Shown here piece by piece: positions 24,568 to 39,496 of a DNA stretch of 64,000 bases. The DNA comes from Maritimibacter sp. (GTDB lineage: Bacteria; Pseudomonadota; Alphaproteobacteria; Rhodobacterales; Rhodobacteraceae). The DNA lies in the NCBI GenBank assembly GCA_002695005.1, contig NZNT01000020.1, positions 186,001-250,000 of the forward strand, given 5' to 3'. The notes under the pieces were generated by a model, which saw only the letters and a program-made list of their open reading frames with translations, made no database searches and was not told where the DNA came from. The number at the start of each line of letters is the position of its first letter. Position 1 is the first letter of the stretch. The position numbers and the translations under genes were made by a program.

Positions 24568-25383
24568 ATGACATATGCAAAGCTCATGGGGGCGGTATTT
24601 TTGCGAAGAGCTGGGGTAATTCTGGCCATGTCGGCGGGTGCGGCCGTCACGGGGCCTTTCGGCACATTTTCGGACCTGACCCTGCTGGAACGCTTGGTCT
24701 ATTGGCCGGCAGGGATTGCCGGCGCGGCGCTTTCCGTGATCGCGGCTGTCGGTATCGCCATGGCGCGGCTGCCAGACAATTGGCACCCGGTGTTCCGAAT
24801 CGCGATCGGCGCGTTCGCGGCAGGCCCGTTGGCCGCGGCTTTGTTGCTCGGCCTCGACATCACGTTCCGTGGAGAGGCGTTGACGGCCTACAACATCGGT
24901 TTCCGCTGGGTCTTCGTCTTCCTGATCGGCTTTCCGATCGCGGTGGTCGAGACCTACGTCCGCCCCGCCACCCTGGCCCGCCACCGTGCAGCGGCGCTGG
25001 CGGAAGTCGAAGGCGCGGCTGCCGAGCCGGAGCCCATCGCGCCGACTGATGAACCCGACGCCCCCGAGCCACCCCTCTTCCTGCGCAACCTGGACGTCGA
25101 TGACGCGAGAAACCTGATCCGGATCGAGACGCAGGACCATTATCTGGACGTGGTGACGTCAGCGGGCGAACATCGCATCCTGAAGCGCATGTCCGATGCC
25201 ATCGCCGAACTGAACGGCTTTCCGGGACTACAGATTCACCGCTCGCACTGGGTGGCCCTCGACGCCGTGGAGCGGCTCGAACGCGAAGGGCGCAAGGCGC
25301 GCGTCGTGCTCAAGAACGGCGACACGATTCCGGTGAGCCGTCCGAATATTCCCGTCGTCGCCACGGCGCTCGAGAACCGCTGA
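24568..25383 (+). CDS. Membrane-anchored LytTR-domain transcription regulator
   Basis: A 271-residue protein. Residues 1-140 contain about four hydrophobic helices (around 10-28, 45-65, 75-95 and 108-128). An Ala/Pro/Glu linker follows (145-170). Residues 175-271 form a LytTR DNA-binding domain (RNLIRIETQDHYLDVVT, ILKRMSDAIAELNGFPGLQIHRSHWVAL). Unlike AgrA or LytR there is no receiver domain, so the membrane part may sense the signal directly. The ATG at 24568 has a GGGGG run upstream. It faces the GMC gene and is followed on the same strand by the flavin oxidoreductase and the putative biosynthetic operon, which are possible targets. Confidence 0.88.
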   Translation: MTYAKLMGAVFLRRAGVILAMSAGAAVTGPFGTFSDLTLLERLVYWPAGIAGAALSVIAAVGIAMARLPDNWHPVFRIAIGAFAAGPLAAALLLGLDITFRGEALTAYNIGFRWVFVFLIGFPIAVVETYVRPATLARHRAAALAEVEGAAAEPEPIAPTDEPDAPEPPLFLRNLDVDDARNLIRIETQDHYLDVVTSAGEHRILKRMSDAIAELNGFPGLQIHRSHWVALDAVERLEREGRKARVVLKNGDTIPVSRPNIPVVATALENR

Positions 25384-25434
25384 GCATGGACAGGCGGTTC
25401 GCGGGTTCCTAGGTATCTGGCGAAAGGACGCCCC

Positions 25435-26430
25435 ATGATACCCTATTCCATCCTCGACCTCGCCCCGATCCCGTCAGGCTCCACGCCCGGCGAGGCGCTC
25501 GCCAATTCCGTCGACCTCGCACAGGAGGCAGAGCGGCTGGGCTACAGCCGGTACTGGTTCGCCGAACACCACAACTCCACCGGCATCGCCTCCGCCGCGA
25601 CCTCGATCCTGATCGGGCATGTCGCGGGACAGACCGACAGGATTCGGGTCGGCGCCGGGGGGATCATGCTGCCAAACCATGCGCCGCTCATGGTGGCCGA
25701 GCAGTTCGGCACCTTGGCCACGCTCTATCCCGACCGTATCGACCTCGGACTTGGCCGTGCGCCGGGCACCGACATGGCGACCGCCCGCGCGCTCAGGCGC
25801 ATCATGACGCAGGCGGATACCTTCCCGGACGATGTTGTCGAGTTGATGAGCTATTTCGACCCGCTCACCGAGGGGCAGCGGATCAAGGCGATCCCCGGCG
25901 CGGGCACGAACGTGCCGGTCTGGATGCTGGGCTCCTCGCTGTTCGGCGCGCAACTCGCCGCACATCTCGGGCTGCCCTACGCCTTCGCCTCGCATTTCGC
26001 GCCCGACGCGCTTGAGGACGCGCTCCACGTCTATCGGTCGTCCTTCCAGCCGGGTCGCACCGACGCCCCGCGCTTCATGCTGGCGGTCAACGTCTTCGCC
26101 GCCGATACCGAGGCCGAGGCGCACCGGCTGCGCACCTCGATGCAGCAGGCGTTCCTGAACCTGCGCACGGGATCGCCCGGACCGCTGCCGGCCCCCGTCG
26201 ATGATATCTCGCTCGTCGCCTCGCCCGACCAGATCGCGATGCTCAACCACGCCCTGCGCGTCACGGCGGTCGGTGATCCGGACCAGGTGGCCCGCCAGCT
26301 CGACGACCTGATCGCGCGTTATCGGCCGGACGAGCTGATCCTGACCGGCATGATCCACGACCCGGCCGCCCGCAAACGCTCCTTCGCCATCGCGGCCGAG
26401 GCGCTGGCGGCCCGCGCCGAAGCCGTCTGA
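25435..26430 (+). CDS. LLM-class flavin-dependent oxidoreductase (luciferase-like)
   Basis: A 331-residue TIM-barrel protein of the bacterial luciferase-like monooxygenase class. Landmarks are the start [22 protein letters not shown] (about 42-49), [30 protein letters not shown] and [18 protein letters not shown]. These match the MsnO8/YhbW-like subgroup, with FMNH2 or F420 as cofactor in different members. The ATG at 25435 has GAAAGGAC upstream, 51 bases after the LytTR gene. It may be a free-standing enzyme or the first step of the operon that starts 93 bases downstream. Substrate unknown. Confidence 0.9.
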
Positions 26431-26523: not shown

Positions 26524-27498
26524 GTGATAACTATTCTCGGCACCGGGCGGGCGCTTCCTGAGCGCCGCGTCGACAGCAGCGAGTTCGACGCTCGCCTGTC
26601 CCTGCCCACAGGCCAGCTTGCGGCCGCCACGGGGGTCAGGTCGCGCTATGTCTGCGACGGCGAGAGCCAGGTCGACCTCGCGCTCGCGGCTGCCACGGCG
26701 GCACTCGCGGACGCCGGACTTGCGCCCGCCGACATCGACCTCGTGATCTGCGGGGCCGCCGTGCCGTACCAGCCGATCCCGGCCACCGCGCCGCTCCTGA
26801 TGCAGCGGCTCGGCATGACGGACGGGTCCGCCTCCGCCTTCGACGTGAACGCGACATGCCTCGGCTTCGTCGTGGCGCTCGACACCGCCGCGCGGCTCAT
26901 CGCCACGGGCGGGGCGCGCCGTGCGCTCGTGGTCTCTGCCGAAATCGCCTCCCGCGCCTTGCCGTGGGAAACGCAGCCAGAGGTCGCGGCGCTGTTCGGC
27001 GACGGGGCTGGGGCGGCGGTCGTCGAAGCCGGGGCCGGTTTGAAGGCGAGCCTCACGCGCACCTACCCGTCGGCCTACGACGCCTGTTCCATCGGCGCGG
27101 GCGGGACGCGGTTCGATTTCCACGCATCGCCCGAAGACTTCGCCGCCCATGCGTGGTTCTCGATGGACGGCAAGGAACTCTTTCGTCTCGCCTCCCGCCA
27201 TTTCGGGGCTTTCGTGACCGACCTCCTCGCCCGCGCGGGCTGGTCGCAGGACGACGTCGACCTCATCGTCCCGCATCAGGCCAGCCCCGCCGCGCTCGTC
27301 CATATGGTGCGCCAGACGGGTTTCGATGCGGGAAAGGTCGTGGATATCGTCGCGGACCACGGCAACCAGATCGCGGCCTCGATCCCCTTCACGCTCGACA
27401 CCGCGCGGCGCGCGGGCCGGGTGCCGCCGGGCACGCGCGTGTTGATGCTGGGCACCTCGGCGGGCGTGTCTTTCGGAGGGCTGGCCTATGAAGCCTGA
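26524..27498 (+). CDS. 3-oxoacyl-ACP synthase III-like enzyme (KAS III/FabH-like)
   Basis: A 324-residue thiolase-fold condensing enzyme starting at GTG 26524, with GGAGGAA upstream. The complete KAS III triad is visible: Cys112 in NATCLGF, His251 in VPHQAS and Asn281 in DHGNQIA. Family members condense acyl-CoA or acyl-ACP units, or transfer acyl groups. It is probably not the housekeeping fabH, which normally lies with plsX. It is the first of six overlapping genes (11-base overlap with the SDR), so it probably provides the carbon skeleton of an unknown product. No acyl carrier protein is encoded nearby. Confidence 0.9.
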   Translation: MITILGTGRALPERRVDSSEFDARLSLPTGQLAAATGVRSRYVCDGESQVDLALAAATAALADAGLAPADIDLVICGAAVPYQPIPATAPLLMQRLGMTDGSASAFDVNATCLGFVVALDTAARLIATGGARRALVVSAEIASRALPWETQPEVAALFGDGAGAAVVEAGAGLKASLTRTYPSAYDACSIGAGGTRFDFHASPEDFAAHAWFSMDGKELFRLASRHFGAFVTDLLARAGWSQDDVDLIVPHQASPAALVHMVRQTGFDAGKVVDIVADHGNQIAASIPFTLDTARRAGRVPPGTRVLMLGTSAGVSFGGLAYEA

Positions 27499-28480
27499 GA
27501 GCGGGCGCGTCCTCGTCACCGGTGCGACCGGCTTTCTCGGCGGCGCGGTGGTCCGCCGCCTGCGCGACGAAGGCATCCCCGTGCTCGCCCAGGGGCGCGA
27601 CCCTGCCGCCTGCGCGGCGCTTGCGGCGCAGGGCGTGCCGGTCTTGCGCTGGGACATTTCGCGCGCGCTTTCCGACCGTCCGCCGGAACTGACCGAAGTG
27701 ACCCATATCGTCCACGGCGCGGGCCTCTCTGCGCCCTTCGGACCACGCGCGGCCTTCGAGGCGGCGAATGTCACCGGCACCCGCAACGTGGTCGCGCTGG
27801 CCCGAAGCCTCGGCGTGGGCCGGTTCGTGCAGGTTTCTTCCTCAACCCTCTACTTTGCGCTGCGCGACCAGTTGGACCTGCGCGAGGACGACCCGCTTCC
27901 CAGGCCGTTCAACGAATACGCGCGCACCAAACGCCTGTCGGAAGAGATCGCACTCGCGGCGCGCGACATCGGCCCCATCGCCCTGCGCCCGCGCGGGCTC
28001 TACGGTGCCGGCGACACGGTGCTCTTGCCGCGCCTGCTGGCCACGGCGCGCGCCCGGCCCCTGCCGCTCCTGCGCGGCGGCGCGGCGCGCATCGACCTGA
28101 CCCATGTGGATGACGTGGCCGACGCGGTTCTCGCGGCCCTGCGCGCCGGTCCCGAGGTCGAAGGCGAGGTCTTCAACATCACCGGGGGCGACGTCATCCC
28201 GGTGACCGACATCGCCGGGGCCGTCTGTGCGCGCGCCGGGGTGAACCTGCGCTGGCGACCTATGCCGGTGTCGCTTGGCCTCGCGGCGGCGTGGAGCGCC
28301 GAGAAGGCCGCCCTGCTCACCGGCGGCGGCGAGCCGCAGATCACCCGCTACGCGCTGGCGCTGTTCGCTTATGCCCAAAGCCTCGACATCTCGAAGGCCG
28401 ATCGGCTGCTCGGCTGGCGCCCCCGGATCGGGTTCGAGGACGGGCTGGAGCGGACGTTCGCAGGGGAGCCGACGCAATGA
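27488..28480 (+). CDS. NAD(P)-dependent epimerase / 3-beta-hydroxysteroid dehydrogenase-like SDR
   Basis: A 330-residue extended short-chain dehydrogenase. The nucleotide motif is TGATGFLGG (11-19) and the catalytic pair is Tyr144/Lys148 (EYARTKRL), with a Ser-rich segment VQVSSSTLYFA before it. The C-terminal half (DLTHVDDVADAVL, FNITGGD) is typical of epimerases and of OleD-type 3-oxo acid reductases. Beside a KAS III-like enzyme, reduction of a 3-oxo intermediate is a fair guess. It overlaps the upstream gene by 11 bases and the downstream gene by four. Confidence 0.9.
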   Translation: MKPESGRVLVTGATGFLGGAVVRRLRDEGIPVLAQGRDPAACAALAAQGVPVLRWDISRALSDRPPELTEVTHIVHGAGLSAPFGPRAAFEAANVTGTRNVVALARSLGVGRFVQVSSSTLYFALRDQLDLREDDPLPRPFNEYARTKRLSEEIALAARDIGPIALRPRGLYGAGDTVLLPRLLATARARPLPLLRGGAARIDLTHVDDVADAVLAALRAGPEVEGEVFNITGGDVIPVTDIAGAVCARAGVNLRWRPMPVSLGLAAAWSAEKAALLTGGGEPQITRYALALFAYAQSLDISKADRLLGWRPRIGFEDGLERTFAGEPTQ

Positions 28481-29301
28481 TCCCCGTGTTCGCCAACAGC
28501 GCCACGGTGCGCACACGCGAGTCCTTCGTCCTGCGCGGCGGGCGTCGCGCCCCCGTCGCCTTGCAGGTGCGGTTCGGACTGCTGGAACATCCGACGGTCG
28601 GGCCGGTCCTGATCGACACGGGCTACACCCACGAAACCGTCGCCGGACCACGCAGCGCCGCGCTCCGGACCTATGCGCGTATTCTGCGCCCCCGGTTGCA
28701 CGACGCGGGGCAGCCCGCCGCCGTGCTTGCCCGGCGCGGAATCGGGCCAGAGGACGTGGCGGCGGTCATCCTGACCCATTTCCACGCCGATCACGTCTCG
28801 GGCCTGCGCCAGTTTCCCAATGCACGGGTGTTCGCCTGTGACCGGACGTTCGCCCGGATCGCGGCGCGCGGCACGCTGGGCAACCTCCGGCACGGAATCT
28901 TTCCGGAACTCCTGCCGGACGACATCGCCACCCGCCTGACAGGCTTCTCCACCTTGCCACGCGCACAGGCCGATGTGCCAAAAGCCCTCACGGCAGTTGC
29001 CGACCTGTTCGGCGACGGGCATGTCCTGACGGTCGACCTTCCGGGCCATGCCGAGGGGCATGTGGGCCTTCTGTTTCCCCGCCTCGACACGCCCCTGCTC
29101 TACGCTTGCGACACGCAATGGATGCTGTCGGCCCTCGACCCCGGACGCGCGCCGGGCTGGCCCGCGCGCCTGATCGCGGACGACCCGGACGCCGGCATGG
29201 CGACCACCCGCGCCGTCGCCGCGTTCCGTGCCGCCGGGGGGCAGGTCATGTTGTGCCACGACCCTGACCCGGCGCCCTACGACATGGAGCCCGCCCCGTG
29301 A
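28477..29301 (+). CDS. Metallo-beta-lactamase-fold hydrolase
   Basis: A 274-residue protein with the complete binuclear metal motif HFHADH (His101, His103, Asp105, His106) after a strand ending in VILT. Later metal-site segments are DLPGHAEGHVGLLFP and LLYACDTQWML. The shape is like N-acyl homoserine lactonases and other MBL esterases, so a thioester, lactone or ester substrate is likely. The ATG at 28477 overlaps the SDR stop (ATGA). There is no signal peptide. In this operon it could release or edit the acyl product, a place taken by the alpha/beta hydrolase OleB in olefin pathways; that comparison is inference. Confidence 0.9.
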   Translation: MIPVFANSATVRTRESFVLRGGRRAPVALQVRFGLLEHPTVGPVLIDTGYTHETVAGPRSAALRTYARILRPRLHDAGQPAAVLARRGIGPEDVAAVILTHFHADHVSGLRQFPNARVFACDRTFARIAARGTLGNLRHGIFPELLPDDIATRLTGFSTLPRAQADVPKALTAVADLFGDGHVLTVDLPGHAEGHVGLLFPRLDTPLLYACDTQWMLSALDPGRAPGWPARLIADDPDAGMATTRAVAAFRAAGGQVMLCHDPDPAPYDMEPAP

Positions 29302-30551
29302 TCCCGGCGGGCGAGGCAATCGGTTCCTTCCTGACCGCCCGCCGCATGGGCCGTGCCGGACTGAGCCGCGCGCGGTTCGAGTCCTGGCAGGCACGGCGCC
29401 TGTCCCGCTGGCTCGCCCGCGACTTGCCGCGTGTGCGGGCCTACGTGTCCGCGCCCGACCGGCTCGACGACCTGCCAATCACCGACAAGGCCACGCTGAT
29501 GGCCGACTTCAGCGCCTACAACATCCACGGGATCACATCGGACCAGGTTCGGGCGGCCATCGCCTCGGACTGCCGAATCGGGAGCCTTACGGTCGGTCAA
29601 AGCACCGGGACCAGCGGCAATCGCGGCTATTTCGTCATCTCGGACGGCGAGCGGTTCCGCTGGCTGGGCGCGATCCTCGCCAAAGCGATCCCTGACCTCG
29701 TCTGGCGCCGGCCCCGGGTGGCAATCGTCCTGCCGCAATCCACGCCGCTCTACGACTCCGCGCGCCAGTCGGGGCGCATCGACCTGAGGTTCTTCGATCT
29801 CGTCTCCGGCCCGGACCAGTGGATCGATGACCTCGCCGCCTTCGATCCGACCGTGGTCGTCGCCCCGCCCAAGATCCTACGCCACCTTGCGGAACGCGGC
29901 GTGGCTCTCGCCCCGACCCGGACGTTCGCCGCCGCCGAAACGCTCGACCCCGTCGACCGGCCGGTGATCGAGGCCGCTTTCGGCCCGCTCGAACAGATCT
30001 ACATGGCCACCGAGGGCCTCCTCGGCGTCACCTGCCGCCACGGACGCCTCCACCTGTGCGAGGACTCCATGAAGTTCGAGTTCGAACCGGTGGGCGATGG
30101 CCTTGTCACCCCGCTCGTCACCTGCTTAGGGCGGCAGGTTCAGATCATGGCACGCTACCGGATGAACGACCTGCTGCGCCTCTCTGCCACGCCCTGTCCC
30201 TGCGGGTCGCCGCTTCAGGCGGTGGACGAGGTGGTCGGCCGGATGGACGACATCTTCCGCATCGGCGGCACGCTCATCACCCCCGACGTGCTGCGAAACG
30301 CGGTGCTCGACGCGGGGCCGGGGATCGACGATTTCCGCATCATCCAGACGGGCCCGGAAACCGTCGACCTGACCCTGCCGCCTGCGGTCACCAAGGCAGA
30401 GGCGCAGGCCGCGGTGGCGGCCCTGACCGCGTTGCTCAGGAGCCGTGCCAAGGGGGTCAAAGTCACGCTGACCCGCGCGCCCCTCACGCTCGAAACAGCC
30501 GCGAAGCTGAGGCGCGTGGCCTGTCACCTCCCGCACACCGACGCGTCATGA
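29298..30551 (+). CDS. PaaK/F390-synthetase-like adenylate-forming enzyme
   Basis: A 417-residue protein of the phenylacetate-CoA ligase / coenzyme F390 synthetase group. The nucleotide-binding loop is STGTSGNRG (102-110). YRMNDLLRL (287-295), CPCGSP and VVGRMDDIFRIGG are typical of the group. The expected chemistry is ATP-dependent activation of a carboxylate as acyl-AMP, with transfer to CoA or another acceptor. The start is GTG 29298, overlapping the hydrolase stop by four bases. The next gene overlaps by four bases too. Substrate not predictable from motifs. Confidence 0.85.
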   Translation: MIPAGEAIGSFLTARRMGRAGLSRARFESWQARRLSRWLARDLPRVRAYVSAPDRLDDLPITDKATLMADFSAYNIHGITSDQVRAAIASDCRIGSLTVGQSTGTSGNRGYFVISDGERFRWLGAILAKAIPDLVWRRPRVAIVLPQSTPLYDSARQSGRIDLRFFDLVSGPDQWIDDLAAFDPTVVVAPPKILRHLAERGVALAPTRTFAAAETLDPVDRPVIEAAFGPLEQIYMATEGLLGVTCRHGRLHLCEDSMKFEFEPVGDGLVTPLVTCLGRQVQIMARYRMNDLLRLSATPCPCGSPLQAVDEVVGRMDDIFRIGGTLITPDVLRNAVLDAGPGIDDFRIIQTGPETVDLTLPPAVTKAEAQAAVAALTALLRSRAKGVKVTLTRAPLTLETAAKLRRVACHLPHTDAS

Positions 30552-31678
30552 ACGCTCCACGAAAAATCGGGGCTGGGGCGGCGAACGACCCTGCGAAAGT
30601 CGCGGCCTTTGCTGCCCTGTTCGACCGGCATCCGTCGTCCGCCTTGATCGCGAACCTCGATACGCGGGTCGAGACTGTGGAGGTCGGCGGTCAGGTCTTT
30701 CCCCTTACGCTCAACGACCGCGACCAGCGCGGCAATTGTTACATCTGCCGGCCGAGCGCGGCCTATATCGACTACGGGCTGGAGGAGACGCGGCATTTCG
30801 TGTCCCACGCCGTCCTGCGCGCCGCGACGCGGGCGTTGATCCGATCCGCCACGCCCGTTCTCCGCCTGAGCGGGCTCGACCATCAGGTTCAGGTGAACAA
30901 CTGGCTTCTCTCGACAAACCCGGTACCGTCGCTCGACAGGGCGAACGTGGCGCATCTGCGTGACACGCTGTTGAACGCGCATCCGGACAGGGCCATCGTT
31001 CTTCGCTCGCTTAACGCTCTGGCGGATGCGGCGACGATGGCCGCCTTACGGGCCGAGGGGTTCACTCTCCTGCCCGCGCGGCAGGTCTATTTTTTCGCGG
31101 ACCGCAGCGACAGGCCCCGCCTGAGCCGCGACATGACGCGCGACCGCAAGCTCCTGGACGACACATCGCACGAAATGGTCGGGAATGGGGATTTCCTGGC
31201 AGAGGATTATGCCCGCGCCGCCGACCTCTACGCGATGCTCTACCTCGACAAGTACACCCCGCTGAACCCACGCTACACCGCGCTCTGCGTGGCCGAATGG
31301 CACCGGGCGGGGATCATCGAGATGCTGGGGCTGCGCGAGCGCGAGAGCGGCGCCCTCGTCGCCGTGACGGGCATGTTCCTCTCCGGCACGACCCTCACGC
31401 AGCCCATCGTCGGTTACGACACGACGCGCCCGCAGTCCGAAGGACTCTACCGCATGATGATGGCCGCCTCGCAGCGGCGGGCGAGCGAAGAGGGGCTTTT
31501 CTTCAACATGAGCGCGGGGGCCGCCGGTTTCAAACGGTCGCGCGGCGCGGTGCCGGTGGTGGAATACACCGCGGTTCACGTCCGCCACCTGCCACCGTCG
31601 GCACGCGGGTCCGTCGCGGTGATGGAGGCGCTTCTGCGTCGGGTGGGCGTCCCGCTGCTTGAAAGGTTCGGGCTTTGA
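30548..31678 (+). CDS. Uncharacterised protein, possible GNAT/FemAB-like acyltransferase
   Basis: A 376-residue protein I do not recognise with certainty. The C-terminal two thirds (about 200-350: DFLAEDYARAADLYAMLYLDKY, LVAVTGMFLSGTT, EGLYRMMMAASQRRASEEG) follow the pattern of BioF2/FemAB-like GNAT folds. The N-terminal part has RGNCYICRPSAAYIDY, with a Cys-Tyr-Ile-Cys pair and a conserved-looking Arg/Tyr stretch. No membrane segments are evident. The ATG at 30548 overlaps the ligase stop (ATGA), and its own stop overlaps the TTG start of the oxygenase. Transfer of the activated acyl group made by the neighbouring ligase is a reasonable guess. Confidence 0.65.
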   Translation: MNAPRKIGAGAANDPAKVAAFAALFDRHPSSALIANLDTRVETVEVGGQVFPLTLNDRDQRGNCYICRPSAAYIDYGLEETRHFVSHAVLRAATRALIRSATPVLRLSGLDHQVQVNNWLLSTNPVPSLDRANVAHLRDTLLNAHPDRAIVLRSLNALADAATMAALRAEGFTLLPARQVYFFADRSDRPRLSRDMTRDRKLLDDTSHEMVGNGDFLAEDYARAADLYAMLYLDKYTPLNPRYTALCVAEWHRAGIIEMLGLRERESGALVAVTGMFLSGTTLTQPIVGYDTTRPQSEGLYRMMMAASQRRASEEGLFFNMSAGAAGFKRSRGAVPVVEYTAVHVRHLPPSARGSVAVMEALLRRVGVPLLERFGL

Positions 31679-32661
31679 CGCAGGACGTTTGGCAGGCCGT
31701 CGCCCTCAGCCGCGCGGTCCGGCAGACACCGAAGCGCGTCCTGTTGGACGGTGTCCCGGTCGTGCTGTTTCGCGGGCGCGACGGGGCCATTGCCGCGCTG
31801 CACGACAGATGCCCGCACCGGTTCGCTTCCCTGTCCGAGGGCCGGTGCCTCGACGGTGAGATCCAGTGCCCCTACCACGGCTGGCGCTTTGCATCCGACG
31901 GGCGATGCACGGCGATCCCGGGTCATGTCGGGCCCTTGCCGACCCTGCGGGCGCAGGCGCTCACCGTGACCGAGGCCGAAGGCGCGATCTTCCTGTCCAC
32001 CGGCACGCCGCAGGCGGCACCTTACGTTCACTGCCTGACCGGGCAGGACGTCATCACGCGCCGAGTGACCAGCGCGACGCGCTCCACCCTGATCGACACG
32101 GCTGAGAACATCCTCGACGCCACGCACACCCATTTCACCCACCGGGGCCTCCTGCGGGGCCTCGGCACGAAACGGTATGCCGTGGATGTCGCGATCACCG
32201 GCGGGCCGGGATGGGTTGAGGCGACATATACGGGCGAAGACCGCCAGCAGGGCCTGATCTCGAAGCTGCTCGAAGGCGCGCGGGTGCGGACCGTCGGGCG
32301 CTACCGTCACCCCGGTATCGCCGAACTGGAATACTGGGGTCCGAACGGCATCGTGCTGGCCACGACCTTTCACCTGCGGCAGGCGGATGCTGAGACGGTC
32401 GAAGGGGTCGGCTGGCTCATGGGACCGAAACAGGCGGGGCTGGGGTATCTCAAGGCACTGGCGTTCAAGCCGATGTTCCGGCTCGCGCTGGACCAGGACC
32501 GCCGGGTGCTGTCACGGGCCTTCGACAATGCGCGCCTGCTGCCCACGGCCAGACCTGTGATCGGCCCGCTCGACATCCTGCGCGAAGACATCGCGCGGAT
32601 CGCCGCGGGCGAGATGCCGAAAGCCGCCCAAACACCCCGCCGGGTTCAGATCGCGCTCTGA
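31675..32661 (+). CDS. Rieske-type non-heme iron oxygenase, alpha subunit
   Basis: A 328-residue oxygenase. The Rieske [2Fe-2S] ligands are Cys46 and His48 (CPHR) and Cys65 and His68 (CPYHGW). The mononuclear iron site has Asp148, His151 and His156 in the D-x2-H-x4-H arrangement (NILDATHTHFTHRG). The size and the two domains fit vanillate O-demethylase-type (VanA) enzymes. No ferredoxin or reductase gene is adjacent, so electrons must come from elsewhere. The start is TTG 31675, overlapping the previous stop by four bases. Its 3' end overlaps the convergent ATP-grasp gene by 16 bases. Confidence 0.9.
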   Translation: MTQDVWQAVALSRAVRQTPKRVLLDGVPVVLFRGRDGAIAALHDRCPHRFASLSEGRCLDGEIQCPYHGWRFASDGRCTAIPGHVGPLPTLRAQALTVTEAEGAIFLSTGTPQAAPYVHCLTGQDVITRRVTSATRSTLIDTAENILDATHTHFTHRGLLRGLGTKRYAVDVAITGGPGWVEATYTGEDRQQGLISKLLEGARVRTVGRYRHPGIAELEYWGPNGIVLATTFHLRQADAETVEGVGWLMGPKQAGLGYLKALAFKPMFRLALDQDRRVLSRAFDNARLLPTARPVIGPLDILREDIARIAAGEMPKAAQTPRRVQIAL

Positions 32662-33806
32662 TCCGGCCCGTTCCATTCGATGTCGTATGTAGACGCGCCA
32701 AGCAGGCTGATCCGCTTGCGCAAAGCCAGCATCGCGAACTCCGCCATGGCCGGAACTTGTGCGCGCCGTGCGCCGGGGTCATCGGGCCAGTCCAGCAAGT
32801 CCTCTGTCTCGCGCAGCACCGCGCGAAACGCCGCGAGGTCGCCGCGCCCCAGCGCCGCCGGGAGGCCATAGACCCAGAGCGCCAGCCGCACGTCCTGCGG
32901 CGTCGAAACATCCGGCGCGAGGGGCGCGCCCGCTCCCGCCAGCATCCGCGCGAATGCAGCACCGTCACGAAAGAAGTGCAGCCCGCTCGTCGCCCTTGGA
33001 TTGCACTCCAGCGGCCGCACGCTGCCATCCGCCAGCCGCATCAGGTCGAACGAGATCTGCCCGCTCCACCCGGTGCCCTCGACAAAGCGTGTCACGAATT
33101 CCGTGACCGCCGCATCCTCGACCGGGGCAAAGGCGACGGCGGCCCCCCGCCCGGCACGGGCAAGGGCGCGGTAGGCGGACAGCGCACCAACGTGGCCTTC
33201 GTGGGCGATGGCATAGGCGCACAACTCGCTCCCATGCAGGTATTCCTGCGCGACCCAGGGCCGCGCGGGCGACGGCGTGATCGCGTCCAGCCCGCGTGGG
33301 TCGGGGCGGATCAGCACATGCTCGGCGAAGCGCGACCAGACCGGCTTGAACACCATGTCCCCCGCCCGCGCGCGCTGGGCGTCCAGATCGGGCAGCCCGC
33401 GCAAGAGGTGCGTTTCGGGCACGGGCAGTCCCAGCCCCGCGCACAATTCGATGAACCTGTGCTTGTCGTGAACCTGCGCGAGCTGGTCGAGGCCCGGCGC
33501 AAACACCGGCAACGGCAGCCCGGCCTCGTCACGCAGGCGGGCGAGGTGAAAGACCTCTTCGCAGGTCGGCACGATCAGGTCGACGCCCTCGCGCGCCACG
33601 ATCTCCTGCACCGCCGCGCCGAATGCGTCGGGCGCGAAACGCGGTGATGGCGTGCGGACATAGCTGGCAAAGCGCGTCGCCGCCGCCAAAGGGCGGGCCA
33701 GCGCATCCGTAAGGATGACCCTGTGACCGGCGCTGCCCAGAAGGCGCGCCATGTGCAACGCCACGGGCGCACGCGCCCCGGTCACGAGGAATGTCTGGCC
33801 GGTCAT
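32646..33806 (-). CDS. ATP-grasp domain ligase-like protein
   Basis: A 386-residue protein with an N-terminal preATP-grasp domain (FLVTGARAPVALHMARLLGSAG) and an ATP-grasp core: MVFKPVWSRFAEHV (ATP-binding Lys) and SFDLMRLADGSVRPLECNPR (Mg-binding Glu-x-Asn). The family joins a carboxylate to an amine or thiol with ATP. It converges with the Rieske gene and lies 40 bases downstream of the last transporter gene on the same strand, with a GCGCCG/CGGCGC hairpin between (33823-33839). It may belong functionally to the biosynthetic operon, to the transporter, or to neither. The start ATG at 33806 has no strong ribosome site. Confidence 0.82.
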   Translation of the reverse strand: MTGQTFLVTGARAPVALHMARLLGSAGHRVILTDALARPLAAATRFASYVRTPSPRFAPDAFGAAVQEIVAREGVDLIVPTCEEVFHLARLRDEAGLPLPVFAPGLDQLAQVHDKHRFIELCAGLGLPVPETHLLRGLPDLDAQRARAGDMVFKPVWSRFAEHVLIRPDPRGLDAITPSPARPWVAQEYLHGSELCAYAIAHEGHVGALSAYRALARAGRGAAVAFAPVEDAAVTEFVTRFVEGTGWSGQISFDLMRLADGSVRPLECNPRATSGLHFFRDGAAFARMLAGAGAPLAPDVSTPQDVRLALWVYGLPAALGRGDLAAFRAVLRETEDLLDWPDDPGARRAQVPAMAEFAMLALRKRISLLGASTYDIEWNGPDQSAI

Positions 33807-33846: not shown

Positions 33847-34797
33847 TCAGCCTTCGGGATAGAAGCAGGCCGCCGGGTGGTCGCCCATCAGTTCCGGCCG
33901 CTCGGCCCGGCACCTGTCCTTGGCCTTCCAGCAGCGCGGCGCAAAGGGGCAGCCGTCGGGAATGGCGAGCGGCGAGGGCAGCTCGCCCTCCAGCTTGATG
34001 CGCTTCTTGTCGGGGTTCGGCTCGGTCGATGGCGTCGCCGAGAGGAGCGCCTTGGTGTAGGGGTGGCGCGGGTTCGAGAACACCGCATCCTTGGACCCGA
34101 ACTCCACGGGCCGGCCCAGATACATCACGACCACGTCGTCTGCGACGTGTCGCACGACTGACAGGTCGTGCGAGATGAACAGATAGGCAAGGTCCAGACG
34201 CTCCTGCAAATCGAGCAGCAGGTTCAGCACCTGTGACTGGATCGACAGGTCGAGCGCCGAGACGGGTTCGTCCAGCACCAGAAGCTTCGGCTCCAGCATC
34301 AGCGCACGGGCGACCGCGATGCGCTGACGCTGACCGCCCGAGAACATGTGCGGGAACCGGTCGTAATGCTCGGGCCTGAGCCCCACGAGCTCGATCATCT
34401 CTCGCGCCTTCGCCTGCCGCTCCTTGGCCGACATGTTCGGGCGGTTGATCTTGAGCGGTTCCTCCAGAATGGCTCCGACCCGGTGGCGCAGGTTGAGCGA
34501 TCCATACGGGTCCTGAAACACGATCTGCACGGTGTCGCGCAGCTTGTCCCAGTTGTCGGGCGTCGCATCCGTGCCCGCGATGTTCAGCGTGCCGGCCGTC
34601 GGCTCTTCGATCAGAGTGACGAGCCGCGCGAGGGTGGACTTGCCGCAACCGGATTCGCCCACCACGGCCAGCGTCTTGCCCGCCTCGATGGTGAAGGACG
34701 CATGGGACAGCGCCTTGACCACGCCGGGCTTCGAAAACAGCCCGCCGCCCACTTCGTAATGGCGGGCGAGGTTCTCGGCGGTGACGACGACGCTCAT
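33847..34797 (-). CDS. dppF: Dipeptide/oligopeptide ABC transporter ATP-binding protein (DppF-like)
   Basis: A 316-residue ATPase. Walker A is GESGCGKST (47-55), the ABC signature lies in FSGGQRQRIAVARAL, and Walker B is LLVLDEPVSALD. The C-terminal oligopeptide extension has four cysteines (CPFAPRC, then two more after RAERP), a pattern seen in Dpp/Opp ATPases. It works in a heterodimer with the neighbouring DppD-like ATPase and overlaps it by four bases. It is the last gene of the leftward transporter operon. The symbol is by family; the substrate may differ from dipeptides. Confidence 0.9.
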   Translation of the reverse strand: MSVVVTAENLARHYEVGGGLFSKPGVVKALSHASFTIEAGKTLAVVGESGCGKSTLARLVTLIEEPTAGTLNIAGTDATPDNWDKLRDTVQIVFQDPYGSLNLRHRVGAILEEPLKINRPNMSAKERQAKAREMIELVGLRPEHYDRFPHMFSGGQRQRIAVARALMLEPKLLVLDEPVSALDLSIQSQVLNLLLDLQERLDLAYLFISHDLSVVRHVADDVVVMYLGRPVEFGSKDAVFSNPRHPYTKALLSATPSTEPNPDKKRIKLEGELPSPLAIPDGCPFAPRCWKAKDRCRAERPELMGDHPAACFYPEG

Positions 34798-35768
34798 GCC
34801 ACGTCCTCCTTCGCGTTGACCGGGTAGTGGCAGCGGGCGAGGCCCAGTTCGCGCGACTGCACCGGCGGATCGATCCTCCGGCAGGTATCGTCGGCGAACT
34901 TGCAGCGCGGCGAGAACAGGCAGCCCTCGGGCCGGTCGTACTGCCCCGGAACGACGCCGGGAATCGTGGGCAGGTGCCGCTCGGTCGCGCGCTCGGGCAG
35001 CGCGTCGAGCAGGGCGGAGGTATAGGGGTGATGCGGCTGCGAGAAGAGCTTGCGCACCTCCTGCTCCTCGACCTTCTGGCCCGCGTATTGCACCTGCACG
35101 CGCTGGGCGGTCTCGGCCACGACGCCCATGTCGTGGGTGATAAGGATCAGGCCCATGCGGTTCTCACGCTGAATGTCGATCAACAGGTCGAGAATCTGCG
35201 CCTGGATCGTCACGTCGAGCGCGGTGGTCGGCTCATCCGCGATCAGCAGACGCGGCTTGCAGGCCAGCGCCATCGCGATCATCACCCGCTGGCTCATGCC
35301 CCCGGACAACTGATGCGGGAAGGTCTTGAGCCGCTTTTCGGGGTCCGGGATGCCGACGAGTTCCAGAAGCTCGATGGCCCGGCGCTGCCGCTCGGCCCGG
35401 TCGAGGTCGAGGTGGATGCGCAGGCTCTCCTTGATCTGGAAACCCACGGTGAAGCACGGGTTGAGCGAGGACATCGGCTCCTGAAAGATCATCGACAGGT
35501 CGCGCCCGATGACCTTGCGGCGCGAGCGGGCCGTCATGCCGCGCAGGTCGATCCCGTCAAAGCTCATCTCGTCGGCGGTGATGGTCGCGGTCCACGGGAG
35601 AAGACCCATCGCGGCCAGCATCGACACCGACTTGCCGGAGCCGGATTCGCCGACGATGGCGAGGATGTCGCCCTCGTCCACGGTGATGTCGACCCCGTCC
35701 ACGGCGCGGAACTGGCCGCCGGCGGTGTCGAAATCGACGCTGAGGTTGCGGATATTGAGGAGGGTCAT
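34794..35768 (-). CDS. dppD: Dipeptide/oligopeptide ABC transporter ATP-binding protein (DppD-like)
   Basis: A 324-residue ATPase. Walker A is GESGSGKS (40-47), the signature is [15 protein letters not shown], and Walker B is [12 protein letters not shown]. The C-terminal oligopeptide extension with four cysteines is present (CLFSPRC onward). The ATG at 35768 (MTLLNIRNL) follows GGAGGCC; the frame is open far upstream but that part crosses the palindromic repeat and is not protein-like. It is separated from the permease gene by 133 bases containing this repeat, which may set different expression of the ATPases and permeases. Confidence 0.92.
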
Positions 35769-35791
35769 GGCTGGCCTCCGGTCAGGTGTTT

Positions 35792-35880
35792 CGCCTTGGC
35801 TGACGCCAAGGCGACCGGGTGGGGGAGGCGCTGCCTCCCCCACACCCCCTCCGAGGTATTTGTGGACCGAAGAAGCAGGG
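35792..35880. repeat. REP-like palindromic element: two perfect hairpins inside the dpp operon
   Basis: The first stem is CGCCTTGGC-TGAC-GCCAAGGCG (35792-35813). The second is GTGGGGGAGGC-GCT-GCCTCCCCCAC (35819-35843). After it comes a C-rich run and GAGGTATTTGTGGACCGAAG with a following AAGC. From memory, very similar units (GC stem plus GAGGTATTT-x-GAAGAAG) recur between genes in Rhodobacteraceae genomes. Only one copy is seen in this window. It lies between dppC and dppD and could act as an mRNA stabiliser or partial terminator. Confidence 0.65.
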
Positions 35881-35901
35881 GTTCGGTGCGTCGGGTCACG
35901 G

Positions 35902-36813
35902 TCAGCTCCTCTTGAGTTTCGGGTCCAGCGCGTCGCGCAGACCGTCACCCATCAGGTTGATGGCGAGCACGGTGACGAGGATGGCGAGGCCGGGGAAGGT
36001 CACCACCCACCAGGCCCGCAGGATGAATTCGCGCGCTTCGGCGAGCATGGTGCCCCATTCCGGCGTGGGCGGCTGTGCCCCCATGCCCAGAAACCCAAGC
36101 GCGGCCACGTCGAGGATCGCGTTGGAGAAGGACAGCGCCGCCTGCACGATGATCGGGGCGAGGCAGTTGGGAAGCACGGTGACGAACATCAGGCGCGGAA
36201 GCCTGGCCCCCGCCACGCGTGCCGAGATCACATAGTCCTTGGACAGTTCCGTCATCACGGCGGCGCGGGTCAGGCGGACGTAATGGGGTTGCAGGACGAT
36301 GGCGATGGCGATCATGGCGTTGAGCAGCGACGGCCCGAGGATCGCGACCAGCACAAGGGCCAGAAGGAGCGACGGGATCGACAGGATGATGTCCATGATC
36401 CGCATGATGATCGTGTCCAACCAGCGCGGCGCGAAGCCCGCGACAAGGCCCGTGAGGATACCGCCGGTCGCCGCGATGATCACGACGACGGTGCCCACGA
36501 GGAAGGAATAGCGCGCGCCGTGGATCAGACGTGAAAGCATGTCGCGGCCCAGCGGATCGGTGCCCAGCGGATAGGTCCATGTCCCGCCGTCCAGCCACGC
36601 GGGCGGGACGAGGGTGGCACCGCGGTTCTGGGCCGATGGCTCGAACGGCGCGATGAGCGGCGCGAAGATCGCGACGAACAGGAAGAACAGGAAAACGTAA
36701 AAGCCGATGACGGCCCCCCGGTTTTCGCGGAAGTACCGCCAGAACTCCTTGAACCGGCCGGGGCGGACGGTGGTGGTCGGCGTGGTGTTGGTCGAAGAAC
36801 TCACGTCTGCCAT
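35902..36813 (-). CDS. dppC: Dipeptide ABC transporter permease (DppC-like)
   Basis: A 303-residue inner membrane protein with about six helices, the first after a polar 30-residue N-terminus. It has the extracytoplasmic segment YPLGTDPLGRDMLSRLIHGAR typical of DppC/OppC and the cytoplasmic EAA-type loop DYVISARVAGARLPRLMFVTVLPN that contacts the ATPases. It starts one base after the DppB stop (start at 36813, DppB ends at 36815), so the two permeases are coupled. Substrate range is not evident from the permease. Confidence 0.92.
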   Translation of the reverse strand: MADVSSSTNTTPTTTVRPGRFKEFWRYFRENRGAVIGFYVFLFFLFVAIFAPLIAPFEPSAQNRGATLVPPAWLDGGTWTYPLGTDPLGRDMLSRLIHGARYSFLVGTVVVIIAATGGILTGLVAGFAPRWLDTIIMRIMDIILSIPSLLLALVLVAILGPSLLNAMIAIAIVLQPHYVRLTRAAVMTELSKDYVISARVAGARLPRLMFVTVLPNCLAPIIVQAALSFSNAILDVAALGFLGMGAQPPTPEWGTMLAEAREFILRAWWVVTFPGLAILVTVLAINLMGDGLRDALDPKLKRS

Positions 36814-36814
36814 G

Positions 36815-37822
36815 TCAGCGCTTCCGGATCTTGGGGTTGATGAGGCCGTAGAGCAGATCGACGATCAGGTTGACGACCATCACCAGCAGCGCGACGAGCA
36901 GCAGCCCGCCCTGCACCACCGGGTAGTCGCGGCGATAGATGCTGTCGACCATCCACTTGCCGATGCCGGGCCATGAGAAGATCGTCTCGGTCAGGATCGC
37001 GCCGGCAAGCAACATGCCCACCGACAGGCCGATCACGGTGACGACCGGGATCATCGCGTTGCGCAGCGCATGGACGCCGTTCACGCGCGGCGGGGCCAGC
37101 CCCTTGGCCTTGGCGGTGCGGATGTAATCCTCGCCCAGCACTTCGAGCATGGCCGAGCGCGTCTGGCGCGCGATGACGGCCAGCGGGATCGTGGCCAGCA
37201 CGATCGACGGCAGGATCAGGTGTCGCACGGCAGATTTGAATGCGCCCTCCTGACCGGACAGCAGGCTGTCGATCAGCATGAAGCCGGTCTTGGCGTCGAA
37301 GAAATACAAAAGGTCGATGCGGCCCGAAACGGGCGTCCAGCCGAGGTTGCCCGAGAAGATGATGATGAGCAGCAACGCCCACCAGAAGATCGGCATCGAA
37401 TACCCGATGAGCGCGGAGGACATCAGCGCGCGGTCAAAGAACTTGCCGCGGTTCACGGCGGCGATGACGCCCGCGGGCAGGCCGAGCGCCACGGCGATGA
37501 TGATGGCGCAGAAGGACAATTCCAGGGTCGCCGGGAACAGCGCGAAAAACTCGTCCCAGACGGGGCGCTTGGTCACATAGCTCTGGCCGAGGTCCCCTTG
37601 CAGGACGCCGGTGAAATAGTCCCAGAACTGCACGACGAGCGGACGGTCGAAGCCGAACTGCTGATAAAGCTCGTTGTAGCGCTCTTCGGACATGCCGCGC
37701 TCGCCCGCCATGACGATGATCGGATCGCCCGGCAGCACGCGGATGAAGGCGAATGAGATGATACAGACGCCTATGAATGTGGGAACGAACGTGAGGAGCC
37801 TCGAGAACAGGTACTTCAGCAT
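36815..37822 (-). CDS. dppB: Dipeptide ABC transporter permease (DppB-like)
   Basis: A 335-residue inner membrane permease with six predicted helices. The N-terminus, YLFSRLLTFVPTFIGVCIISF, is the usual first helix. A typical loop, LRHLILPSIVLATIPLAVIARQTRS, and the EAA motif DYIRTAKAKGLAPPRVNGVHALRN are visible. The start ATG at 37822 is 102 bases after the binding-protein gene stop, with a strong hairpin between. Confidence 0.92.
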   Translation of the reverse strand: MLKYLFSRLLTFVPTFIGVCIISFAFIRVLPGDPIIVMAGERGMSEERYNELYQQFGFDRPLVVQFWDYFTGVLQGDLGQSYVTKRPVWDEFFALFPATLELSFCAIIIAVALGLPAGVIAAVNRGKFFDRALMSSALIGYSMPIFWWALLLIIIFSGNLGWTPVSGRIDLLYFFDAKTGFMLIDSLLSGQEGAFKSAVRHLILPSIVLATIPLAVIARQTRSAMLEVLGEDYIRTAKAKGLAPPRVNGVHALRNAMIPVVTVIGLSVGMLLAGAILTETIFSWPGIGKWMVDSIYRRDYPVVQGGLLLVALLVMVVNLIVDLLYGLINPKIRKR

Positions 37823-37892
37823 CGGGTTGCCTCTCGGTCTGGCTGGGCCGTGGCCTGGCGCGGTCGGGACATGTCGGCTCCTTCAGGGGGTC

Positions 37893-37914
37893 GGCGGGGC
37901 CCGAAGGCCCCGCC
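37893..37914 (-). terminator. Intercistronic hairpin after the binding-protein gene
   Basis: GGCGGGGCC (37893-37901) and GGCCCCGCC (37906-37914) form a perfect 9-bp stem. On the transcribed minus strand the loop is the stable tetraloop TTCG. It lies ten bases past the dppA stop and has no T-tract. Such hairpins commonly protect abundant binding-protein mRNA from 3' decay and lower expression of the following permeases. Confidence 0.7.
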
Positions 37915-37924
37915 GGGTATCAGA

Positions 37925-39496
37925 TCATTCAGCCAGGCTGACTTCGGTGAAGATATGGCCGCCGAGCGGGTGGACCTTGTAGCCCTCCACTTCGGGGCGC
38001 ACCGGCATGAACACGACCGAGTGCGCGATCGTCGCCCACGGGGCCTGATCCTTGAAGATGGCCTGAGCCTCTTCATAAAGCGCGGCGCGTTCGTCCTGCG
38101 AGGACAGCGTCTTGGCTTCCACGATCAGCTCCTGGAACGGCTCGTGGCACCAGTTGGCGCGGTTCGACCCGCCGACACCGTCACAGCCCAGAAGGACGGC
38201 GAGGAAGTTGTCCGGGTCGCCGTTGTCGCCGGTCCAGCCGAGAAGCACGGCACCGTCACGCTCTTCGTCGGCCGAACGCTCGAGGTACTCACCCCATTCG
38301 TAGGTGACGATCTCCACGTCCACGCCGATCTGCGACATGTCTTCCTGAATGAGCTCGGCCATGCGGCGCGCATTCGGGTTGTAGGGGCGCTGCACCGGCA
38401 TCGCCCAGACTTTCATCGACAGGTCTTCGACACCGGCATCGGCCAGCATCTGCTGGGCGGCTTCCGGATCATACGGATCGTCTTCGATGGCTTCGTTGTA
38501 GGACCACATGGTCGGCGGAATCGGGTTCGATGCGATCTGGCCCGAGCCCTGGAACACGACGTCGATGATGGCCTGCTTGTCGATGGCCATGTTCAGCGCC
38601 TTGCGGACGTCCGGGTTGTCGAACGGTTCCTGCATGGTGTTGTAGGCGAGGTAGCCGACGTTCAGACCTTCCTGCTCGAGAACGTTGATGTTCTCGTCCG
38701 ACTGCATCGCTTCGATGTCGGCCGGGTTCGGGTAGGGCATGATGTGGCATTCGCCGGCCTGGAGGCGCTGGTAGCGCACCGAGGCGTCCGTCGTGATCGC
38801 GAAGACGAGGTTGTCAACCTTCGGCAGACCCTCTTTCCAGTAGTCCTCGTTGGCCGCATACCGGATCACCGCGTCGCTCTGGTAATCGACGAACGAGAAC
38901 GGGCCGGTGCCGATGGGCTGCTGGTTCAGCATCTCGGGCGTGCCGGCTTCTTCCATCGCGTCCGCGTATTCCTTGGACTGGATCGAGGCGAAGTCCATCG
39001 CGAGGTTGGCGACGAACGGCGCTTCGGGACGGGTCAGGGTGAACTTGACCGTCATGTCGTCGACCTTCTCGATCGAAGAGATCAGATCGCCCATGCCCAT
39101 GGCGGTGAAGTATTCGCCGGTCCAGCCGTCCACGGTCTGACGCTCGAACGAGTAGATCACGTCGTCGGCGTTGAAGTCACGCGACGGGGTGAACATGTCG
39201 TTCGAGTGGAACTTTACGCCTTCACGCAGGTTGAAGGTCACTTCCATGCCGTCTTCCGACACGTCCCAGCTTTCGGCCAGGCCCGGAATGACGTTGGTGG
39301 TGCCGACTTCGAACTCGGTCAGGCGGTTGTAGATCGGGTGCGACGACGCGTCGAAGGTCGTGCCCGACGTATAGAGCGCCGGGTCGAAGCCCTCGGGGCT
39401 GCCTTCGGAGCAATAGACGAGCGTCGATTGCGCCGAAGCGGTGCCCGCGAGCAAGGCAAAGAGGCCTGCTGCGGTCAGTGTTTTTCTTAGAGACAT
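37925..39496 (-). CDS. dppA: Peptide ABC transporter substrate-binding protein (DppA-like)
   Basis: A 523-residue periplasmic protein of family 5 binding proteins. The Sec signal peptide is residues 1-22 (ends GTASAQ). The mature start LVYCSEGSPEGFDPALYTSGTT and the Asp/Glu-rich peptide-binding regions are typical of DppA. The ATG at 39496 has AGGGAG upstream. It is the first and probably the most abundant gene of the leftward operon A-B-C-D-F. The substrate may be dipeptides, but related systems carry heme, nickel or opines, so it is not certain. Confidence 0.92.
   Translation of the reverse strand: MSLRKTLTAAGLFALLAGTASAQSTLVYCSEGSPEGFDPALYTSGTTFDASSHPIYNRLTEFEVGTTNVIPGLAESWDVSEDGMEVTFNLREGVKFHSNDMFTPSRDFNADDVIYSFERQTVDGWTGEYFTAMGMGDLISSIEKVDDMTVKFTLTRPEAPFVANLAMDFASIQSKEYADAMEEAGTPEMLNQQPIGTGPFSFVDYQSDAVIRYAANEDYWKEGLPKVDNLVFAITTDASVRYQRLQAGECHIMPYPNPADIEAMQSDENINVLEQEGLNVGYLAYNTMQEPFDNPDVRKALNMAIDKQAIIDVVFQGSGQIASNPIPPTMWSYNEAIEDDPYDPEAAQQMLADAGVEDLSMKVWAMPVQRPYNPNARRMAELIQEDMSQIGVDVEIVTYEWGEYLERSADEERDGAVLLGWTGDNGDPDNFLAVLLGCDGVGGSNRANWCHEPFQELIVEAKTLSSQDERAALYEEAQAIFKDQAPWATIAHSVVFMPVRPEVEGYKVHPLGGHIFTEVSLAE

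Follow-up and report, generated by a model that had tools for sequence, protein, structure and literature searches.

What does a compact cassette of seven biosynthetic genes in Maritimibacter sp. make? The cassette lies in a 64,000-nucleotide stretch of this genome (the window; GenBank assembly GCA_002695005.1, contig NZNT01000020.1, positions 186,001 to 250,000), whose own numbering is used below. Our best reading is that it encodes an undescribed pathway. Its constant part is a four-gene core of beta-ketoacyl synthase III (KASIII), short-chain dehydrogenase/reductase (SDR), metallo-beta-lactamase-fold (MBL) hydrolase and PaaK-like ligase; the tailoring genes come in several sets, and the one found here encodes a double-GNAT (GCN5-related N-acetyltransferase) protein, a Rieske oxygenase and an ATP-grasp protein. 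We put at roughly 45% the probability that the cassette is a dedicated pathway, with no carrier protein of its own, to an undescribed lipid-like small molecule. The seven genes are as follows.

26524..27498, + strand: KASIII (FabH-like), 324 amino acids, start GTG; core gene 1.
27488..28480, + strand: extended SDR, nearest to OleD (2-alkyl-3-oxoalkanoate reductase), 330 amino acids, start ATG; core gene 2.
28477..29301, + strand: MBL-fold hydrolase of lactonase/thioesterase type, 274 amino acids, start ATG; core gene 3.
29298..30551, + strand: PaaK-like adenylate-forming ligase, nearest to TIGR02304 ('F390 synthetase-related'), 417 amino acids, start GTG; core gene 4.
30548..31678, + strand: double-GNAT transferase of predicted Fem/MprF/Sbb17 fold, 376 amino acids, start ATG; tailoring.
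31675..32661, + strand: Rieske non-heme iron oxygenase, 328 amino acids, start TTG; tailoring.
32646..33806, − strand: ATP-grasp carboxylate-amine-ligase-like protein (NF005315/PRK06849-like), 386 amino acids; tailoring, convergent.

The six plus-strand genes overlap head to tail by 11, 4, 4, 4 and 4 bases, in that order, which bears out the first-pass annotation of six rightward genes with GTG, ATG and TTG starts and overlaps of 4 to 11 bases; the convergent Rieske and ATP-grasp genes share 16 bases at their 3′ ends. That annotation had also reported that no carrier protein is encoded, and this holds for the window, where the seven overlapping genes leave zero space for a carrier-protein gene. 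When flanking open reading frames (ORFs) of at least 70 amino acids from 87 loci were clustered, the 40 largest clusters contained no cross-genus family accompanying the cassette, no carrier-protein profile having been applied in this analysis. A candidate extra gene in the gap between the Rieske and ATP-grasp genes of Mesorhizobium was rejected on the same clustering, in which it did not recur across genera.

The gene set recurs in unrelated taxa, as the neighbourhood search proposed in the first-pass annotation has now found. A GNAT profile run against 84,980 species genomes gave 474 relatives, 80 of which were analysed; four contig ends of one Ralstonia assembly (L125–L128) were dropped, leaving 76 loci. 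These were fetched through the GNAT protein alone, and 65 of the 76 hold KASIII, SDR, MBL, ligase, GNAT and ATP-grasp genes, with a Rieske gene in 59 of the 65. Six of the 11 incomplete loci are truncated by contig ends, and five (L110, L120, L122, L123 and L124) have no core in the DNA fetched; L120 and L123 start at a contig end, so that 8 of the 11 touch one. The core lies on the strand opposite GNAT in 10 of the 65 loci, having moved relative to it and yet been kept. The full set of seven is found again in Mesorhizobium, Rhizobium, Shinella, Stappia and Rhodobacterales; Paraburkholderia, Paenibacillus and Pontibacillus have variants of the cassette, and Fusobacterium has the core. The best match to the GNAT profile, Maritimibacter alkaliphilus HTCC2654, has all seven genes (L049) at 67–79% identity. 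In Mesorhizobium (flanks of L050–L087), two flanking gene families recur in 32 and 27 of the 87 loci; because of this recurrent setting, the cassette is probably fixed at one site there.

Plasmid records searched with the GNAT protein alone gave 12 matches, 11 of which were inspected. The seven genes are arranged as in the window in four of these (Shinella, two Rhizobium and Roseateles). ATP-grasp lies within the operon in the Paraburkholderia and Paenibacillus records; the former has a Rieske-like stretch, in two pieces, 3′ of GNAT, and the latter no Rieske gene in the stretch fetched. In three Rhizobiaceae records a DUF3419-like (BtaA-like) gene, identified by Pfam in one of them, separates ligase from GNAT, and there is no ATP-grasp gene on the plasmid record, their chromosomes not having been searched. 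The Roseateles sp. XES5 record (L047, NZ_CP084753.1) is flagged as an unverified organism; it shares the cassette and its flanking aguA genes with Shinella L038, which is why this organism is probably a Shinella relative.

Could the genes be chance neighbours, or serve unrelated catabolic roles? Their distribution is patchy, as that explanation would have it: the GNAT gene occurs in 2 of the 8 genomes of the genus, the window's own genome counted, and, at E 0.001, in 7 of 394 family genomes, of which one holds only a 26% relative. We nevertheless regard it as highly improbable, contradicted as it is by recurrence across several phyla, by joint inheritance and by modules that are rearranged yet intact. 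For the four core proteins, matrices of pairwise distances agree with one another at r = 0.87–0.90 (n = 35–43 loci), the best of 999 permutations reaching 0.55; the agreement reflects joint inheritance rather than function, and the permutation leaves shared species history in. In a phylum sample of 249 genomes, the ligase (TIGR02304, E 1e-30) and ATP-grasp each occur in 6 genomes, 5 of them shared with the window's own genome counted. The hypergeometric probability of this overlap is 5e-9, or 6e-6 with the window's genome and one member of a congeneric pair removed, values that take the three 249-genome draws as identical genomes. KASIII, SDR and MBL genes adjoin the ligase in 6 of 6 (the SDR of L138 being split in two), and GNAT occurs in 3 of the 249, all 3 with the ligase. 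Core genes in several frames or pieces (SDR in L138, 6982–7991, and in L147; ligase in L057 and L074) are decayed genes or sequencing errors.

Unlinked modules tell the same story of one pathway. A whole-genome search of GNAT–Rieske loci without an adjacent core (Ralstonia pickettii SSH4, Burkholderiaceae bacterium 26, Ralstonia sp. TCR112 and Thalassospira) found a TIGR02304 gene over the cut-off elsewhere in 4 of 4 genomes; the first three are kin, so this result stands for two lineages. ATP-grasp adjoins GNAT in three of the four, and the TCR112 contig stops just before GNAT. Elsewhere in their genomes, R. pickettii and Burkholderiaceae bacterium 26 hold a complete operon of the type found in Escherichia coli (core, PAP2, hydroxylase and desaturase) and Thalassospira the four-gene core. 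The modules thus belong to one pathway even where they are unlinked.

The composition of that pathway varies around its core. We matched the ligase of genome G880, which carries the E. coli-type operon, to 26 plasmid records and inspected 19, leaving out Escherichia, Paracoccus, Ketogulonicigenium (four) and Shinella records. KASIII, SDR and MBL genes are present in 18 of the 19, dispersed across 10 kb in L147, and the record L143 holds ligase and ATP-grasp only. Paracoccus and Ketogulonicigenium (L141 and L142) have the bare four-gene core, with TetR and sulfotransferase genes divergent from it; a sulfated product is conceivable there. In E. coli, G880, Burkholderia stagnalis, R. pickettii and Burkholderiaceae bacterium 26, the core is followed by PAP2, a sterol-desaturase-family hydroxylase (in G880 a weak OlsE match, 65 bits against a cut-off of 475) and a desaturase, and G880 was found to have neither ATP-grasp nor GNAT. 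ATP-grasp and Rieske genes occur without a nearby GNAT in the genomes of L138 and L139 and in Novosphingobium; a search elsewhere in the L138 and L139 genomes found no GNAT. Because of G880 and two further exceptions taken up below (G692 and G576), the tailoring modules can stand in for one another as well as occur together. The coupled operon of the first-pass annotation is confirmed, with the correction that the unit is modular, a constant core with exchangeable tailoring; ATP-grasp, there an add-on, is a regular partner in the window's branch and is absent from other branches. Of single records, L146, a 2.1-Mb Fusobacterium vincentii 'plasmid', is probably a mislabelled piece of chromosome, and the lone ATP-grasp relative at L173 (8999–10186), where the core is absent, adjoins a B12-binding radical S-adenosylmethionine (SAM) protein and a polysaccharide deacetylase, possibly a separate use of the enzyme.

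What chemistry do the core enzymes suggest? Residue conservation was counted in alignments of the locus copies from which short, split or weak pieces had been dropped (KASIII, L093 and L145; SDR, L118, L041 and L147; MBL, L081; ligase, L074; Rieske, L077, L039 and L141). The active sites reported earlier as intact in synthase, hydrolase and oxygenase are so, and they are near-invariant across copies. KASIII has ACP_syn_III and ACP_syn_III_C domains (Pfam) and scores 288 bits against NF005541/PRK07204, below the cut-off of 402; Cys112, His251 and Asn281 are identical in 88 of 88 copies. It is not taken for the housekeeping FabH, another KASIII-like gene (35% identity) lying on a different contig of the genome. 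The SDR is an Epimerase-domain protein (Pfam) with S117, Y144 and K148 identical in 90 of 90 copies. The MBL hydrolase (Lactamase_B, Pfam) retains its HFHADH motif, and H101, H103, D105, H106, H191, D212 and H261 are identical in 92 of 92; its NCBIfam matches to N-acylhomoserine lactonases are weak and far under cut-off, and its solved relatives, also weak, are an N-acylhomoserine lactonase and 4-pyridoxolactonase. The ligase, with S102, G104, G107, E239 and K403 identical in 94 of 94, reaches 227.6 bits against TIGR02304, its best family, 24 under the cut-off of 251.9; two Ralstonia copies, one Burkholderiaceae and one Thalassospira copy pass this cut-off, and the G880 copy scores 587 bits. 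The name of that family carries no function. Phage carriage of the ligase was rejected, no match having been found among 50,697 phage records (E 1e-20).

The resemblance to olefin synthesis noted in the first-pass annotation concerns mainly the SDR. OleABCD, like the cassette, is a single operon for a thiolase-superfamily condensing enzyme, an OleD-like SDR, a hydrolase and an adenylate-forming enzyme, and a corresponding route would run through head-to-head condensation, reduction and a ligase-made beta-lactone, a lactonase replacing OleB, to a beta-lactone or an alkyl beta-hydroxy acid. OleD is the best NCBIfam match of the SDR (NF042422, 157.1 bits; the G880 copy gives 161–164 bits with two OleD models) and the MBL enzyme resembles lactonases. 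However, the SDR is far under the OleD cut-off of 580, OleB and OleC are absent, and KASIII is closer to FabH (177 bits) than to synthases of the 3row/4ktm type (about 82–87 bits), which we take to be OleA. With an MBL hydrolase, a PaaK/F390-like ligase and the added ATP-grasp, double-GNAT and Rieske enzymes, the remainder of the likeness is loose, and we consider an Ole-like route unlikely.

An aryl route related to that of the Pseudomonas quinolone signal (PQS) offers a second comparison. PqsA, PqsD and PqsE parallel the ligase, KASIII and MBL enzyme, and PqsABCDE shares with the cassette the logic of coenzyme A (CoA) ligase, KASIII and MBL thioesterase. Here the ligase would make an aryl-CoA, KASIII would join it to malonyl, the MBL enzyme would act as a PqsE-type thioesterase and the SDR would reduce the ketone, giving an aryl beta-hydroxy acid or amide. 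The solved relatives of the ligase include AjiA1 and PaaK or PaaK-like ligases, and the PDB matches of KASIII, nearest to FabH-type synthases, include CorB, PqsC and PQS biosynthetic enzymes (3h76–3h78), CorB and the PQS enzymes standing lower in the list. Against these likenesses, no gene of aryl-acid synthesis was seen among the annotated neighbours in the inspected records, the added SDR reduction would prevent closure of the quinolone ring, the tailoring differs, and in E. coli, Burkholderia and Ralstonia the core is found together with membrane enzymes of lipid type. We consider a PQS-like route improbable.

The tailoring proteins were approached partly through structure prediction, with two models built from 44 and 38 alignment rows, hand-picked from the loci. 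The double-GNAT protein of the window has no Pfam match at E 0.001 (a Paenibacillus relative passes PF13480), and a PDB sequence search with the GNAT alignment gave chance-level matches only. Its AlphaFold model (predicted local distance difference test, pLDDT, 92) matches in Foldseek the peptide synthases Sbb17 and Sba18 at the top, then MprF and LPGS, with FemX lower; for the named matches the agreement is moderate (template modelling score 0.40–0.52 by query length, 8–16% identity). F328 and K329 are identical in 90 of 90 copies. A 2026 review describes double-GNAT transferases that use aminoacyl-tRNA and have a lysine, Lys305 in FemX of Weissella and Lys329 in DhpH-C, in which Phe328 also contributes (PMC12945691). 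FemABX, MprF/LPGS and Sbb17/Sba18 have the predicted fold and, putatively, a conserved Phe–Lys pair in common with the window protein, the identical numbering in DhpH-C being a coincidence. The first-pass annotation called the protein a putative acyltransferase; given the predicted fold, the group transferred may instead be aminoacyl, possibly from aminoacyl-tRNA.

The protein could instead be an ordinary acyl-CoA-dependent N-acyltransferase, in which case an N-acyl amino acid or a signal, and not an aminoacylated lipid, would be made. The fold matches also include glycine N-acyltransferase and tandem-GNAT acetyltransferases, and acyl-CoA could come from the ligase; the top matches are nonetheless aminoacyl-tRNA enzymes, and the invariant Phe–Lys pair recalls the one that matters in DhpH-C. 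We hold the N-acyltransferase reading to be possible but doubtful.

The Rieske protein has a Rieske domain (Pfam), with DdmC and SxtDIOX/SxtT as nearest solved relatives; both the 2Fe-2S motif CxH..CxxH and the 2-His-1-carboxylate site are present, C46, H48, C65, H68, D148, H151 and D275 being identical in 79 of 79 copies and H156 in 78 of 79. The ATP-grasp protein scores 317.7 bits against NF005315 (PRK06849), below the cut-off of 406, and its predicted model (pLDDT 93) has 2pn1, PurK, PurT, L-amino acid ligase and PylC as fold neighbours; that model omits 4 of 39 convergent copies, in which the blast range crossed the stop codon 2–4 residues from the end. K154, E267, N269 and R271, presumably the Lys and Glu/Asn/Arg residues of the ATP-grasp motif, are identical in 90 of 90 copies. 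PDB sequence searches with the ATP-grasp protein alone and with DUF3419 gave nothing useful.

We propose the following sequence for a dedicated pathway to a lipid-like molecule. The PaaK-like ligase would activate a carboxylic acid, and KASIII would join the activated acyl unit to a malonyl (or second acyl) unit from primary metabolism, yielding a beta-keto acyl thioester that the OleD-like SDR would reduce to the beta-hydroxy acyl form. The MBL enzyme would cleave the thioester (or a lactone), and the ATP-grasp enzyme would couple the core acid to an amino-acid-type partner through an amide (or ester) bond. An aminoacyl (or acyl) group would be attached by the Fem/MprF-like enzyme, and the Rieske enzyme, with a borrowed reductase, would oxygenate the product. 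A carrier gene would be missing because each core enzyme acts once, carriers being needed only from primary metabolism.

The product would then combine a lipid-like beta-hydroxy-acyl scaffold and a head group of amino-acid type. In betaine-lipid synthesis (BtaA/BtaB), a BtaA-like enzyme transfers an aminocarboxypropyl group from SAM, and the BtaA-like gene that takes the place of ATP-grasp in the three Rhizobiaceae copies suggests that both install an amino-acid-type group; such a gene is absent from the window, and the operon setting differs from that of BtaA/BtaB. This swap, the amino acid ligases among the ATP-grasp fold neighbours and the aminoacyl-tRNA users among those of GNAT together suggest the head group. 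The lipid-like scaffold is suggested by PAP2, hydroxylase and desaturase genes in relatives, rather than by the window.

Several points weigh against this reading. The gene set, the intact active sites, joint inheritance, modularity and the two predicted folds are direct results, and from gene content we infer all substrates, the head group, the step order and the lipid nature. The window itself encodes no membrane hydroxylase or desaturase; PaaK-like ligases often use aromatic acids, and the scaffold may accordingly be aryl. A ligase acting after the hydrolase would change the order of steps, and the moderate double-GNAT match is to a predicted fold that also serves acyl-CoA-dependent enzymes. 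GNAT distances follow the core less closely (r 0.68–0.72) than core proteins follow one another. Two Deinococcus plasmid records hold only ATP-grasp and GNAT, without ligase, their chromosomes not having been searched; in genome G576 a ligase fragment adjoins the GNAT and Rieske genes, and no ATP-grasp match was found; and genome G692 has a lone ATP-grasp with no TIGR02304 match at E 1e-30.

Cassette GC content (69.9%) is the top value among same-length slices sampled every 500 bases of the window, against 65.5% for the rest, which suggests acquisition. No consensus sigma-70 promoter or terminator was found immediately 5′ of it. Upstream on the same strand (24568–26430) lie genes for a LytTR-type regulator and an MsnO8-family luciferase-like monooxygenase, the latter ending 93 bases before KASIII; they were rejected as members of the unit, not occurring within the 19 kb fetched around the cassette of Maritimibacter L049. 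An oligopeptide/dipeptide-type ABC transporter gene set follows the cassette on the minus strand (33847–39496), and its OppF-like gene adjoins the cassette in L049 too, at 93% identity.

How far has such a pathway been described, and where could it be studied? No matching named pathway was found in NCBIfam, where all models listed for the window's seven proteins score below their cut-offs, or in the open-licence literature, in agreement with the first-pass annotation, which knew of no product for the set. The cassette was not found described in open-licence PubMed Central papers (titles and abstract starts), and a subscription paper or preprint could exist. Every enzyme family except the GNAT-like one is already named, and the logic resembles that of the Ole and Pqs pathways.

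The E. coli form of the operon matches 672 of 5,426 complete genomes (megablast), 671 of them over at least 80% of the query, with identities of at least 99% in 102 records, 95–99% in 568 and 90–95% in 2. Nissle 1917, ABU 83972 and EC958 are among the matches listed, as are clinical, probiotic and river-water isolates, and these data give no link to virulence. In the two records inspected, narI and the purU region flank the operon, which a tRNA-Tyr pair adjoins in UPEC 26-1. A 386-kb E. coli 'plasmid' (L140, NZ_CP141085.1) is probably a mislabelled piece of chromosome, because it carries narGHJI, galU and hns.

That Fusobacterium, Bacillales, alphaproteobacteria and E. coli share this core implies that its product serves a genuine function across many bacteria. 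Tentatively, at a little under even odds, the cassette represents a new and widespread class of specialised lipids, made by a carrier-less core of four enzymes with interchangeable modules: ATP-grasp, aminoacyl-tRNA-dependent transferase and Rieske enzyme; membrane hydroxylase and desaturase; or SAM-dependent aminocarboxypropyl transferase. A member would then be made by about 1 in 8 of the E. coli strains with complete genomes, among them Nissle 1917, and the E. coli form allows the question of the product to be put to a direct test in a probiotic or laboratory strain. If the double-GNAT enzyme does use aminoacyl-tRNA, it would add a new class of acceptor to tRNA-dependent natural product chemistry.

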